From an uncultured Dehalococcoidia bacterium (GTDB lineage: Bacteria > Chloroflexota > Dehalococcoidia > Lucifugimonadales > UBA3495), in NCBI GenBank assembly GCA_951813535.1, contig OX638345.1, positions 323,029 to 387,028 on the forward strand: a DNA stretch of 64,000 nt, written 5' to 3'. The notes below the pieces were generated by a model. It was not told the origin of the DNA. It saw nothing but the letters and a program-made list of their open reading frames with translations, and ran no database searches. Positions within the stretch are counted from its first letter, which is position 1. Every line of letters starts with the position of its first letter. Both the position numbers and the translations under genes were made by a program. Positions 21,555 through 42,951 of the stretch are shown here, piece by piece.

Positions 21555-21911
21555 ATGCCCATCACCCAGAACGGCGCCGAACTCACCGTAGAGATTTCGG
21601 AAAAGGCTGCCGAAAAGATCAAGTATTTCGCCGACAAAGAGGGTCTCACCGACAATATCGGTCTGCGCGTCGCCGTCAAGGGCGGCGGCTGCTCAGGTCT
21701 GACCTACGACCTGACCATCACCGACCAGGAGCGCGAATCCGACAAGATCGTCGAGCAGTTCGGCGTCAAGGTGATGGTGGACAAGAAGTCCTACATTTAC
21801 CTGGTCGGCACCCAGCTCGACTTCTCCGACGGCCTCAACGGCAAGGGCTTCATCTTCGAGAACCCCAACGCCAAGAAGGCCTGCGGCTGCGGCACCTCCT
21901 TCGCCGTGTAG
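21555..21911 (+). CDS. erpA: Iron-sulfur cluster insertion protein (A-type carrier)
   Basis: 118 aa. The three A-type cysteines are present: GGGCSGL and the C-terminal KKACGCGTSF (C-x-C). A-type carriers receive Fe-S clusters from a scaffold and deliver them to apoproteins in the cytosol. VTKPVDL-like features are absent and the LTYDLTITDQ core is typical, so this is ErpA/IscA and not the selenoprotein-like relative at 39117. It has an excellent ribosome site (GGAGG), its own promoter and a terminator after it. The ErpA versus IscA/SufA label is uncertain. Confidence 0.9.
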   Translation: MPITQNGAELTVEISEKAAEKIKYFADKEGLTDNIGLRVAVKGGGCSGLTYDLTITDQERESDKIVEQFGVKVMVDKKSYIYLVGTQLDFSDGLNGKGFIFENPNAKKACGCGTSFAV

Positions 21912-36055: not shown

Positions 36056-36412
36056 ATGACCATGACCCCCGCCCGCAGTTCGCCCTTCGCCGCCATGGCC
36101 CGCGACCCGCTGCATCCCGACGTGATCTACCGGGACGAGCGCTGCTTCGTGGTGCGCGACATCAACCCCAAGGCGCCGGTGCACCTGCTGATCATCCCCA
36201 ACATGCCCATCAATGGGCTGGATTACATCAGCCCCGCCATGGAGGCAAACATGGGCCACCTGTTCGTGGTTGCCGCCGAGATGGCGCGGCGCGAGGGCGT
36301 CACCATCAGCGGCTACCGGCTGGTGGTCAACAACGGCGAGGACGCCGGCCAGACCATCGCCTGGCCCCACATGCACCTGCTGGGCGGCCGGGGGCTAGGG
36401 GACATGGGCTGA
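36056..36412 (+). CDS. HIT family protein with altered histidine triad
   Basis: 118 aa. The fold is clear: FAAMARDPLHPDVIYRDERCFVVRDINPKAPVHLLIIP, then GYRLVVNNGEDAGQTIAWPHMHLLGGRGLG. HIT enzymes are nucleotide hydrolases or transferases with H-x-H-x-H-x-x; here the first triad position is Trp (W-P-H-M-H-L-L), while the catalytic middle His and the last His remain. GGR after the triad is typical of the Hint branch. Overlapping ATGs at 36056 and 36062 are both possible starts. Confidence 0.85.
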   Translation: MTMTPARSSPFAAMARDPLHPDVIYRDERCFVVRDINPKAPVHLLIIPNMPINGLDYISPAMEANMGHLFVVAAEMARREGVTISGYRLVVNNGEDAGQTIAWPHMHLLGGRGLGDMG

Positions 36413-37283: not shown

Positions 37284-37886
37284 ATGACCACCATCGAAAT
37301 CTCCGACCGCGTGGTCGACCGCATCCACCGCCGGATCCGCCGCCTCCCGCCCGGGCTCCAGGAACACTGCCAGCGGGTGGAGCAGATCGCCCGCGGCCTC
37401 GCCGAGCGCCACGGGCAGGACGTGGAAGCCGTCGGCCTGACCGGCCTGGCCCACGACGCCACCAAGCACTTCTCCGGCCTGGAGAACCTCCTCCGAATGG
37501 AGGAGTATGACCTGCCTCCGGTCACCGAGTTCGAACGCCGGAACCCGGCGATCCTCCACGGCATGGTGGGCGCCGAGCTGCTCAAGCGGGAGGACGGCCT
37601 GGGCCATCCGCAGCTGTACAATGCGGTGTACTGGCATACCACCGGCGACCCCGCCGGCGGCGACCCCATCGCCCACATAGTTTTCCTCGCCGACAAGCTG
37701 GACCCGGTCAAGGTCAAGCGCTACCCCTGGCAGGGTGAGCTGAAGGAACTGGCGGAGAACGACCTGCCCGCCGCCATGACCATGTTCCTCACCCGAAACG
37801 TCGTCCGGATGCTGGACAAGGGTTCGGCGGTGCATCCCGCGGCGATAGAAGCGCGTAACGCCTTGCTGTTGTCGAAAGCATCGTAG
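37284..37886 (+). CDS. yqeK: HD-domain hydrolase, YqeK-like
   Basis: 200 aa. HCQRVEQIARGLAERHGQD, GLTGLAHDATKHF (the HD pair), NPAILHGMVGAELL and HTTGDPAGGDPIAHIVFLADKLDP match YqeK, an HD phosphohydrolase that cleaves symmetric diadenosine tetraphosphate to ADP. In many bacteria yqeK follows nadD; here it is 10 kb away. The ATG is preceded by AATGGAGGCTGGCA. Confidence 0.85.
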   Translation: MTTIEISDRVVDRIHRRIRRLPPGLQEHCQRVEQIARGLAERHGQDVEAVGLTGLAHDATKHFSGLENLLRMEEYDLPPVTEFERRNPAILHGMVGAELLKREDGLGHPQLYNAVYWHTTGDPAGGDPIAHIVFLADKLDPVKVKRYPWQGELKELAENDLPAAMTMFLTRNVVRMLDKGSAVHPAAIEARNALLLSKAS

Positions 37887-37928: not shown

Positions 37929-38219
37929 ATGGAGTACCAAGTTGTCGTTTGGCGCGGCACACTGTCCGATGATTCCATCTGCTACGCGGCAGTTTTCCCT
38001 GCACTGAATCACGCCAACGGCCAGGGGGATACCGAAGCGGAAGCACTGGTTGAAGTTGCGGACAGCATTGCCTGCTTCCTGGAGCATATACCTGAAAGGC
38101 TCAAGACCGGCCAGGCGGCTCAGGACGAAATGTCGGAGCTGGTGGCAGAGCTGACCTCCGAGGGTGTTGAGCACTGGTTCCGTCAGGTTACCCCGCGCCG
38201 CATTACTGTGTCTGCATAG
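37929..38219 (+). CDS. hicB: HicB-type antitoxin (copy 1)
   Basis: 96 aa. EYQVVVWRGTLSDDSICYAAVFPAL, ANGQGDTEAEALVEVADSIACFLE is the degraded RNase H-like fold of HicB (..y..v.f.....vyvasvp.lp...a.GdT.eEAl.na..ai...l). The toxin hicA1 starts 2 nt after its stop. HicB proteins neutralise HicA and bind the operon promoter. Confidence 0.82.
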   Translation: MEYQVVVWRGTLSDDSICYAAVFPALNHANGQGDTEAEALVEVADSIACFLEHIPERLKTGQAAQDEMSELVAELTSEGVEHWFRQVTPRRITVSA

Positions 38220-38221
38220 CG

Positions 38222-38509
38222 ATGCCGAGAATAGCCAACGTTAAAGCACGTGAGCTAATCCGTTTACTGCGTCGTATGAGATTTACTCCGCATAATCGGG
38301 ATCACGTGTATTTCTACCACGAATGGCTGAACATATCGGCGATGGTCTCGCACGGAGACAAAGAGGTTGACGCTGACTTGATGGGAGACATCGCCATCAA
38401 GCAGATGAAGATGAACAGCGCCGAGGAGTTTCGCGCCGCGCTGCGCGGTAACATACCCCGCCGCTACCTCGACCCCGACGCGCCGTGGGACGGCCAGGCC
38501 TTGGACTAG
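38222..38509 (+). CDS. hicA: HicA-type toxin (copy 1)
   Basis: 95 aa. VKARELIRLLRRMRFTPHNRDHVYFYHEWLN, VSHGDKEVDADLMGDIAIKQMKM follow HicA, a small dsRBD-like mRNase. The usual G-S-H site appears as N-R-D-H here. The tail MNSAEEFRAALRGNIPRRYL is unusually long for HicA and is shared with copy 2. Confidence 0.8.
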   Translation: MPRIANVKARELIRLLRRMRFTPHNRDHVYFYHEWLNISAMVSHGDKEVDADLMGDIAIKQMKMNSAEEFRAALRGNIPRRYLDPDAPWDGQALD

Positions 38510-38526: not shown

Positions 38527-38817
38527 ATGGAATACGATGTTGTTGTCTGGCGCGGGACCCTGTCTGACGGTTCCACCTGCTACGCGGCCATCTGTCCAGC
38601 CGTCGATCATGCTCATGGCCAGGGTGACACGGAAGCAGAGGCCCTGGTTGACGTTGCGGATACCATGGCCATCTTTCTGGATCATGAGCCGGAAAGGTTC
38701 AAAACCGGGCAAGAGGCACAGGACGCAATCCGCAGGTTGAAGGAAGAGCTCGCCGAAAATGGGACCACCTGTTGGGTAAAGCAGGTTGCGCCGGCGCGCA
38801 ATCAGGTCCCCGCTTAG
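38527..38817 (+). CDS. hicB: HicB-type antitoxin (copy 2)
   Basis: 96 aa. Tandem paralogue of copy 1 (EYDVVVWRGTLSDGSTCYAAICPAVDHAHGQGDTEAEALVDVADTMAIFLDH), same length, about three quarters identical. It lies 17 nt after hicA1 and 3 nt before hicA2, so a four-gene hicBA-hicBA unit is likely. Confidence 0.82.
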   Translation: MEYDVVVWRGTLSDGSTCYAAICPAVDHAHGQGDTEAEALVDVADTMAIFLDHEPERFKTGQEAQDAIRRLKEELAENGTTCWVKQVAPARNQVPA

Positions 38818-38820
38818 GTC

Positions 38821-39108
38821 ATGGTCAGGATTGCCAACGTCAAGACTAGACAATTGCTTCGATTGTTACGCAGGATAGGTTTTACACAGAGTAATCGGGA
38901 CTATGTGTACTTCATACATGCGTGGCTGAATCTGCGGACCAAGGTGTCGCATGGAGATAAAGAAGTGGACGCTGATCTCATGGGAGAGATCGCTATCGTG
39001 CAACTCAAGATGAACAGCGCCGAGGAGTTTCGCGCCGCGCTGCGCGGCAACATTCCCCGCCGCTACCTCGACCCCGACGCGCCGTGGGACGGACAGCCCC
39101 TGGACTAG
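38821..39108 (+). CDS. hicA: HicA-type toxin (copy 2), possibly inactive
   Basis: 95 aa. Parallels copy 1 but the presumptive active-site His is Tyr (N-R-D-Y-V-Y). The SHGDKEVDADLMG block and the C-terminal tail are kept. The last 99 nt are about 95 % identical to those of copy 1, far more than the rest, which suggests gene conversion. It ends 8 nt before the probable selenoprotein gene. Confidence 0.78.
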   Translation: MVRIANVKTRQLLRLLRRIGFTQSNRDYVYFIHAWLNLRTKVSHGDKEVDADLMGEIAIVQLKMNSAEEFRAALRGNIPRRYLDPDAPWDGQPLD

Positions 39109-39116
39109 TGAACAAC

Positions 39117-39446
39117 ATGACCACACAGCTTGAAATAACTCCGGAAGCTGCCCAGTTCATCCGGCACAAGGGCGGCCAGGCCGTCGTCGATCTGATCTGC
39201 TGGAAGGGTTGAAGCGGCGAGTCCGTTGAGGTATCGGTCGATACCAACGTGCGCCGCCGCCGCAGCCTGGAGTCCTATGACCCTGCCAGCCAGGACGACA
39301 TCACCCTGTACCTGGCGCCGGGCATCGCCGAATACGCCGTGCAGGTGGACGTTTCCATGAGCCGGTTCCTGCTCTTCCGGAACCTGAAGGCCACCATCGT
39401 GCTGCCCCACGGCGTCACGCTGGGCCGGCGCGCTTCCCTCGTTTAG
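39117..39446 (+). CDS. Probable selenoprotein, HesB/IscA-like with C-x3-U motif (in-frame UGA)
   Basis: 109 codons plus stop. The reading frame runs ATG 39117 to TAG 39444, interrupted only by TGA at codon 32 (39210-39212). Around it the protein reads VVDLICWKG-U-SGESVEV, a C-x3-U pair, and the N-terminus LEITPEAAQFIRHKGG resembles the start of HesB/A-type carriers. I recall an NCBI family of 'CC/Se motif (seleno)proteins' of this kind; I could not search. TGA is a normal stop elsewhere in the window, so recoding must be specific. A SECIS-like hairpin follows. No selA, selB, selC or selD gene is in the window. The alternatives are a pseudogene or a sequencing error. Confidence 0.72.
39230..39245 (+). 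promoter_or_regulatory. SECIS-like hairpin 17 nt after in-frame UGA
   Basis: A perfect 6-bp stem GGTATC / GATACC (39230-39235 with 39240-39245) with loop GGTC. The loop starts 23 nt after the UGA. Bacterial SECIS elements lie within the coding region just downstream of UGA, with an apical loop that in E. coli fdhF includes GGUC. Confidence 0.6.
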
Positions 39447-40018
39447 CCGGAGCGGGCCGGCAGCATGTCCGCCACGGCGCAGGTGAATCCCGGCAGGTAG
39501 TCCCCGCCGTCCACCGAGTCGGCGTCGGTGAGAACCAGCGGCGGCGCATCGGATGTGTGCACCGTCAGCGTGCGGGCGTCGATGTCAATTACCCAAACTG
39601 CCCTGCCGCCGGCGTCCAGATATTCGCGGATCTTCCGGGCAATTTCGCTTGCAGTGTTGCTTTCGGACAGAATTTCGACGGCAAGATCGGGCGCACCATC
39701 GTAGAGCATTCCGGCTAGATCGGGTTGCGCGAGCCGCGCGTTCGACACGAACGAGACGTCGGGCATCCGCGACGTAGCCGGAGAATCGGGTCCGGTAACG
39801 TAGCCCCGGTTGCTGAGGTACACCCGGCCCAACTGGTTGGGGAAGACGTGCTCCGCCATTCGCCAATTGACCAGAGAGCCGGTATATTCGTGCTCTTCCG
39901 ATGCTACCATTTGCTCAACGAGAACTCCTCTCACCAACTCGTAGCGAGGATGCTTGGGCAACGCTGCGTATTCTTCCAGCGAAACCGGCGGTGCGGCGGC
40001 CATGTTTCGTGTCGACAT
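39443..40018 (-). CDS. Uma2 family endonuclease-like protein (array copy C)
   Basis: 191 aa. PKHPRYELVRGVLVEQMVASEEHE, LAQPDLAGMLYDGAPDLAVEILSESNTASEI (family motif PDLAVEIL) and YLDAGGRAVWVIDI. Last of three leftward tandem paralogues; ATG 40018 has GGGAGG upstream. Its end overlaps the convergent selenoprotein gene by a few nt. It differs from its sisters mainly after EEHE (TGSLVNWRMAEHVFPNQLG). Confidence 0.87.
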   Translation of the reverse strand: MSTRNMAAAPPVSLEEYAALPKHPRYELVRGVLVEQMVASEEHEYTGSLVNWRMAEHVFPNQLGRVYLSNRGYVTGPDSPATSRMPDVSFVSNARLAQPDLAGMLYDGAPDLAVEILSESNTASEIARKIREYLDAGGRAVWVIDIDARTLTVHTSDAPPLVLTDADSVDGGDYLPGFTCAVADMLPARSG

Positions 40019-40034
40019 GCTCGAGCCTCCCGGT

Positions 40035-40604
40035 TCACGCCGCGGGCAACATATCCGCGACGGCGCAGGTGAAGCCGGGCAGATAGTCTCCGCCGTCCAC
40101 GGTGTCGGTGTCGGTGAGAGTGAGCGGTTGTGCGTCTGCGGTGTGCACCGTCAGCGTGCGGTCGTCGATGTCAATTACCCAAACTGCCCTGCCGCCGGCG
40201 CTCAGGTATTCGGCCACCTTCTGCGCTATCTCAGCGGGGGTGTTGCTGTCCGACAGTATTTCCACGGCCAGGTCGGGGGCGCCGTTGTAAAGCATCCCCG
40301 CCAAGTCTGGCTGGCTCAATCGCGCGTTGGAAACAAACGAAACGTCAGGCATCCGCGACGTGGCCGGATAATCGGGTCCGGTGACGAATCCTCGATTACT
40401 TCCATATACTTTACCGAGCCCGCGGGGGCGCGTGTGACCCAACATATGATGGCCCACTAGCAGAACCGTTTCCTCGTGCTCTTCCGACGCTACCATCAGC
40501 TCGACCAATATTCCCTTCACCAGTTCATACCGCGGGTGTTTGGGCAGCGTGGCGTACTCCTCCAGCGTAACCGGCGGCGCGGCGGCGATGTTTCGCGTCG
40601 TCAT
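40035..40604 (-). CDS. Uma2 family endonuclease-like protein (array copy B)
   Basis: 189 aa. Same layout as its neighbours: PKHPRYELVKGILVELMVASE, GAPDLAVEILSDSNTPAEIAQ, YLSAGGRAVWVIDIDD. The region after EEHEE (TVLLVGHHMLGHTRPRGLGKVYGS) is the most divergent of the three. Own ribosome site GGGGAGG. It is 16 nt upstream of copy C. Confidence 0.87.
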   Translation of the reverse strand: MTTRNIAAAPPVTLEEYATLPKHPRYELVKGILVELMVASEEHEETVLLVGHHMLGHTRPRGLGKVYGSNRGFVTGPDYPATSRMPDVSFVSNARLSQPDLAGMLYNGAPDLAVEILSDSNTPAEIAQKVAEYLSAGGRAVWVIDIDDRTLTVHTADAQPLTLTDTDTVDGGDYLPGFTCAVADMLPAA

Positions 40605-40619
40605 GTGGAGCCTCCCCGT

Positions 40620-41189
40620 TCACGCGGCCGGCCGCAGATCCGCGACGGCGCAGGTGAAGCCGGGCAGGTAGTCCCCGCCGTCCACCGCGTCGGCGTCGGT
40701 GAGAACCAGCGGCGGCGCATCGGATGTGTGCACCGTCAGCGTGCGGGCATCGATGTCGATGACCCAAACGGCCTTCCCGCCGGCGTCCAGATATTCGCGG
40801 ATCTTCCGGGCAATTTCGTTTGCAGTGTTGCTCTCGGACAGAATTTCGACAGCCAAGTCCGGCGCGCCGTCGTATAGCATTCCGGCCAGGTCGGGTTGCG
40901 TGAGCCGCGCGTTCGACACGAACGAGACGTCGGGCATTCGCGACGTAGCCGGAGAATCGGGTCCGGTGACATAGCCCCGGTTGCTGAGGTAAACCCGGCC
41001 TAGACGATTCAACAGCACATGATTGCCGACTCTTATGACGACCAGCGATCCGGTATGCTCGTGTTCTTCCGACGCTACCATCAGCTCGACCAATACTCCC
41101 TTCACCAATTCAAACCGCGGGTGCTTGGGCAGAGCGGCGTACTCTTCCAGTGAAACCGGCGGCGCGGACGCGATGTTCTGCGATGTCAT
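40620..41189 (-). CDS. Uma2 family endonuclease-like protein (array copy A)
   Basis: 189 aa. PKHPRFELVKGVLVELMVAS, GAPDLAVEILSESNTANEIA and YLDAGGKAVWVIDIDA. Variable patch: TGSLVVIRVGNHVLLNRLG. Ribosome site GAGGAGG before ATG 41189. First of the array and 34 nt downstream of the MoxR-type gene, so possibly co-transcribed with it. Confidence 0.87.
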   Translation of the reverse strand: MTSQNIASAPPVSLEEYAALPKHPRFELVKGVLVELMVASEEHEHTGSLVVIRVGNHVLLNRLGRVYLSNRGYVTGPDSPATSRMPDVSFVSNARLTQPDLAGMLYDGAPDLAVEILSESNTANEIARKIREYLDAGGKAVWVIDIDARTLTVHTSDAPPLVLTDADAVDGGDYLPGFTCAVADLRPAA

Positions 41190-42692: not shown

Positions 42693-42951
42693 CTGCCATA
42701 CCGTCGCGGCCTGCCATACCGTCGCGGCCTGCCATACCGTCGCGGCCTGCCATACCGTCGCGGCCTGCCATACCGTCGCGGCCTGCCATACCGTCGCGGC
42801 CTGCCATACCGTCGCGGCCTGCCATACCGTCGCGGCCTGCCATACCGTCGCGGCCTGCCATACCGTCGCGGCCTGCCATACCGTCGCGGCCTGCCATACC
42901 GTCGCGGCCTGCCATACCGTCGCGGCCTGCCATACCGTCGCGGCCTGCCAT
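42693..42951. repeat. 18-bp minisatellite, 14 perfect units
   Basis: CTGCCATACCGTCGCGGC repeated 14 times without visible mismatch (42693-42944), plus a partial unit. It occupies the 350-bp gap between the divergent MoxR-type and DUF1232 genes. The unit length is a multiple of three and every frame is open: on the minus strand it reads (MAGRDG)n in frame with the MoxR-type gene. Confidence 0.95.

Follow-up and report, generated by a model that had tools for sequence, protein, structure and literature searches.

The gene at positions 39117–39446 (plus strand) of the window (that is, the whole 64,000-nucleotide stretch of DNA analysed here) is, judging from comparative sequence data, a genuine and well-supported selenoprotein gene that belongs to an already catalogued family, and its internal UGA (39210–39212) is almost certainly a selenocysteine (Sec) codon. 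Conservation of the UGA among relatives, Sec machinery in the same genome, a conserved hairpin downstream of the codon and Cys counterparts in distant homologues together lead us to conclude that the UGA is read as selenocysteine, and the same evidence upholds the first-pass annotation, which had called the locus a probable selenoprotein. As the best explanation overall, we consider it highly probable that SelB- and hairpin-dependent decoding places Sec at residue 32 of a protein with an IscA/SufA-type fold, for which a single-selenolate redox activity would be the most likely role. The family concerned (CC/Se motif) is catalogued by NCBI but uncharacterised; what is new here is a near-universal Sec form in one order, a correction of the motif, Cys counterparts and a fold, and the resulting comparative set brings together 90 relatives in the Sec form and three or more in the Cys form, along with a predicted fold.

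Reading frame and family membership

From the ATG at 39117 to the TAG at 39444–39446, the frame spans 109 residues and is interrupted by a single TGA at codon 32, as had been proposed and as translation bore out. The N-terminal part of the readthrough product (MTTQLEITPEAAQFIRHKGGQAVVDLICWKGUSGESVEVSVDTN...) places Cys28 four residues before the UGA (C-W-K-G-U). The earlier view that coding character continues on both sides of this codon agrees with the conserved protein sequence that flanks it in a 60-sequence alignment. General reassignment of TGA had been discounted from the outset, and rightly so, as neighbouring genes end in TGA in the usual way and so, in some relatives, does the selenoprotein gene itself.

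The coding sequence was assigned on the basis of readthrough translation, relatives and a profile match. When the product was searched with U at position 32, its sole NCBIfam match was NF041239 (‘CC/Se motif family (seleno)protein’), with a score of 45.2 bits where the curated threshold is 40; the alignment covers nearly the whole length, and the family has either Sec or Cys at the same column. Pfam gave no match for the 109-residue product on its own, and the PDB searched by sequence gave none for the protein or for the profile. A 2026 review includes NF041239 among predicted selenoproteins as a ‘hypothetical protein predicted in Moorella thermoacetica’ with the motif CxxU (PMC13188914, Table 1). 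Several distant relatives score below the NF041239 cut-off. The warning that a standard-code annotator would split or lose the gene was correct in that the locus then becomes ORFs of 42 and 65 amino acids, and the same would happen in genomes of this order if their annotation relied only on the standard code; it was too broad in that NCBI already names the family and its current pipeline could recover the gene.

Conservation of the UGA among relatives

At 15 named loci the homologous codon is TGA throughout: 13 are close relatives with 70–97% identity (from Dehalococcoidia, the SAR202 cluster and other Chloroflexota bins), and two are distant, one dehalococcoidial (47%) and one actinobacterial (40%). 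Such agreement is far more than chance would produce. When 247 genomes from the order were searched with a profile, 84 of them yielded 90 matches in total; the in-frame TGA is present in each match (90/90), and all 70 distinct relatives that were read individually have it in the same column. No homologue whose frame ends at this position was found among these relatives (90 matches; 70 read), and the UGA thus appears to be kept in every relative found in this marine Chloroflexota branch. Six genomes carry two neighbouring copies of the gene, with TGA in both. Relatives of the selenoprotein were found neither in the viral contigs nor in the plasmids searched.

Outside the order, the phylum of the actinobacterial locus contributes five relatives with TGA, and it is also there that the Cys counterparts anticipated by the first-pass annotation were found: the Sec column is Cys in three distant actinobacterial relatives (L134, TGC; L135, TGT; L138, TGC), and a fourth Cys-type relative of the same phylum, L139, has Cys-Cys. 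Of the three (L134, L135 and L138), two come from genomes that have no selA match, and none keeps the EVSVDT hairpin sequence.

Selenocysteine machinery

The source assembly consists of a single 4.38-Mb contig, and all four of the genes that the first-pass annotation had proposed to look for (selA, selB, selC and selD) are present on it, so that the objection of a complete genome lacking selB and selC does not apply. The selB match scores above its family cut-off, the tRNA-Sec (selC) has the anticodon UCA, and the selD match is full-length except for one in-frame TGA of its own, with a strong hairpin downstream of it. The best formate dehydrogenase alpha subunit (FdhA; L142, positions 2554548–2556650 of its own genome) has no internal stop; therefore, Sec is not kept in this genome for that FdhA. 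Across the order, selA is above cut-off in 75 of the 84 gene-bearing genomes (a hand count from two tables); the nine without it are all 60–88% complete, and all gene-bearing genomes that are at least 90% complete have selA.

A covarying hairpin downstream of the UGA

A SECIS hairpin (GGUAUC-GGUC-GAUACC; 39230–39245, plus strand, apical loop 39236–39239) lies 23 nt 3′ of the UGA, and the sequence GAGGTATCGGTCGATACC downstream of the UGA is common to nearly all close relatives. Within the genus (14 members), codons 39–44 are invariant and the mean synonymous difference is 0.10 over codons 37–44 versus 0.42 elsewhere (Mann–Whitney p 0.0007). Distant relatives show paired changes (GTA...GAT to GTG...GAC; TCG...GTC to TCA...GTT or TCC...GTG). 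The third-position stem pair 6–15 is unbroken in 62 sequences, being A-U in 37, G-C in 24 and G-U in 1, with 6 changes on the tree, and 96% of stem cells are paired as opposed to 25–58% in slid-partner controls.

The published bacterial SECIS model has a loop of 3–9 nt with G in the first two positions, a stem of 4–16 bp, a distance of 16–37 nt from the UGA and an MFE of at most −7.5 (PMC13188914). The hairpin described here lies within these bounds: its GGUC loop sits on a 6-bp stem at a distance of 23 nt from the UGA, and the 24-nt hairpin has an energy of −7.7 kcal/mol (−6.4 for the 18-nt stem-loop on its own). Its loop has a covarying N1–N2 pair, as in the published model. The hairpin energy of the single sequence is unexceptional (z −1.79 over 55 nt and −0.16 over 45 nt; p 0.13 when compared with synonymous recodings). 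We set this energy aside as evidence; energy alone would not have revealed the SECIS element. Pairs spanning the UGA that were given by RNAalifold were likewise set aside.

In the second copies of the tandem genes (L105, L106, L107 and L108), the SECIS region is changed and has possibly moved upstream: the GGUAUC-type stem is absent from second copies (for example, L107, 683–1006), and in some of them a candidate alternative stem, CCGAG-GU-CUCGG, was seen by eye slightly upstream.

Two other readings of the codon can be weighed against these observations. If the UGA were a true stop (that is, if the gene were a fossil, the TGA a sequencing error, or the locus two separately translated short ORFs), the 42- and 65-aa ORFs of the standard code would be accounted for, but TGA in 90/90 relatives of the order with conserved protein sequence on both sides, Cys in its place in distant relatives and the covariation of the RNA hairpin would not; because of these comparative data, we regard this reading as refuted and assign it practically no probability. 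It is also very improbable that a suppressor tRNA or general recoding places Trp or Cys at the UGA, a reading that is opposed by the use of TGA as an ordinary stop in neighbouring genes and at the 3′ ends of relatives, by the presence of tRNA-Sec and all of the Sec genes, by the SECIS hairpin downstream of the codon, and by the homologues, in whose Sec column Cys and never Trp was reported. On the sequence evidence, selenocysteine at residue 32 is close to certain.

Motif and predicted fold

The first-pass annotation had taken C-x3-U to be the expected redox or metal site. Cysteine counts cover 69 relatives (the 70th, L089, is included in the TGA column count but left out here): Cys stands at −4 from Sec in 33 of the 69 and is lineage-specific, and 25 of the 69 have Sec but no Cys. 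What is conserved is therefore Sec by itself and not C-x3-U, and the only invariant columns in the 60-sequence alignment are A11 and the Sec/Cys column. The name of NF041239 suggests Cys-Cys or Cys-Sec, and CU or CC does occur in the distant relatives L028, L139, L026 and L027; unlike this motif, and unlike the tabulated CxxU (PMC13188914), the source genus has C-x3-U and many relatives lack any Cys. The comparative set shows selection apparently keeping Sec itself and not a C-x-U or CC motif. Another HesB-like selenoprotein family, TIGR01911, has the motif UxGP (PMC1794560, PMC13188914). It resembles the protein studied here in being Sec-containing and HesB-related, whereas most members of the present family have U-[S/T/A/G]-G, and TIGR01911 was not reported for the product even at E 1.

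AlphaFold2 models of the protein (pLDDT 84, pTM 0.77–0.78) support an IscA/SufA (HesB)-type fold. The predicted model matches SufA in Foldseek (E 1.8e-4) and in VIA-align (Z 9.3, rmsd 2.5 over 87 residues), with further VIA-align matches to IscA (Z 8.4 and 8.3) and DsrR (Z 7.9) and unrelated rows from Z 3.3; the best chains are mainly A-type Fe-S proteins. The HesB/IscA-like context that had been noted around the UGA is supported by this comparison. Pfam Fe-S_biosyn (PF01521) is weakly matched by 17 of 60 members (best E 5e-4). The window itself encodes a canonical A-type Fe-S protein (IscA/SufA; 21555–21911, plus strand) with all three ligand Cys, which served for comparison, and hhalign places Sec32 on its first ligand Cys, albeit with low probability (19%). 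The selenoprotein would thus resemble the A-type Fe-S carriers IscA, SufA and HesB (PF01521, TIGR00049) in its predicted fold and in having Sec at the position of the first ligand Cys, but differ from the three-Cys IscA and SufA in that the C-terminal C-x-C is absent and only the first position is retained, as Sec. This model-based placement on an A-type carrier fold offers a concrete start for biochemistry.

Proposed mechanism and role

We envision that SelB, bound to the downstream hairpin (23 nt from the UGA), would deliver Sec-tRNA-Sec, that the UGA would be decoded as selenocysteine 32 and that the ribosome would go on to the TAG. The product may have an IscA/SufA-type scaffold in which Sec replaces the first ligand Cys and the C-terminal C-x-C has been lost, so that a single reactive selenolate would act and the protein would not be a normal Fe-S carrier. 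Such a protein could be a small redox protein whose resolving thiol comes from outside, as no Cys is universally present, or from Cys28 where this residue occurs. We give the single-selenolate redox role of the predicted selenoprotein an even chance; its basis is general Sec chemistry, and the fold itself is that of a metal-binding family. Tentatively, and with more doubt than this, we suggest that an Fe-S carrier fold may have been turned into a one-residue selenium enzyme, found in this order in the Sec form only, with Sec as the sole invariant reactive residue, no resolving Cys required and UGA in both copies where genes are in tandem.

An alternative that accepts the Sec is that the protein handles metal or Fe-S clusters, the selenolate serving as a ligand (perhaps one per dimer subunit) so that metal is carried or scavenged and no redox catalysis takes place. 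The fold shared with the IscA/SufA metal and cluster carriers, the alignment of Sec with the first ligand Cys of the window's IscA and the weak Fe-S_biosyn matches all point in this direction, but the C-terminal C-x-C pair is missing, 25 of the 69 members have no Cys besides Sec, and the same window already has a canonical IscA; we hold this alternative to be rather unlikely.

Gene neighbourhood

In the family, the acyl-CoA dehydrogenase gene is usually followed by hinT, yqeK and then the selenoprotein gene (L042, L129 and L117 are examples); related genera have this order, and it was not seen outside the family. In the window, the ancestral neighbours are a HIT-domain (HinT-like) gene (36056–36412, plus strand) and, as the ancestral upstream neighbour, yqeK (37284–37886, plus strand), which encodes a symmetrical Ap4A hydrolase with an HD domain. 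Between yqeK and the selenoprotein gene lie two hicB-like/hicA-like pairs (37929–38509 and 38527–39108, both on the plus strand), described in the first-pass annotation as a duplicated hicBA locus. The tandem duplication is real (the pairs are 64% and 80% identical to each other); the HicA/HicB label is weak, with E values of 0.004 (HicA) and 0.073 (HicB) for the first pair, both below Pfam cut-offs, no HicA or HicB match in Pfam for the second pair, and nothing from PADLOC for these proteins. Their adjacency to the selenoprotein gene is incidental, because in L041, of the same genus, the pairs are absent and yqeK lies directly upstream of the selenoprotein gene. A functional link was rejected in view of L041 and of the hicBA-free order in related genera; the pairs are insertions between the two genes and are not thought, from these sequence comparisons, to be part of the selenoprotein's function.

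Downstream, three tandem Uma2 (putative nuclease) genes of 189–191 aa occupy 39443–41189 on the minus strand; the first of them shares 4 bases with the end of the selenoprotein gene and matches the PADLOC candidate PDC-S03, and Uma2 copy number at this place varies among relatives in the genus. An ORF for an AAA/MoxR-type ATPase opens with an 18-bp repeat (42693–42951) that runs perfectly in tandem for 14.4 copies (100% identity) and reads in frame as (GMAGRD)n; the true start codon of this ORF probably lies downstream.
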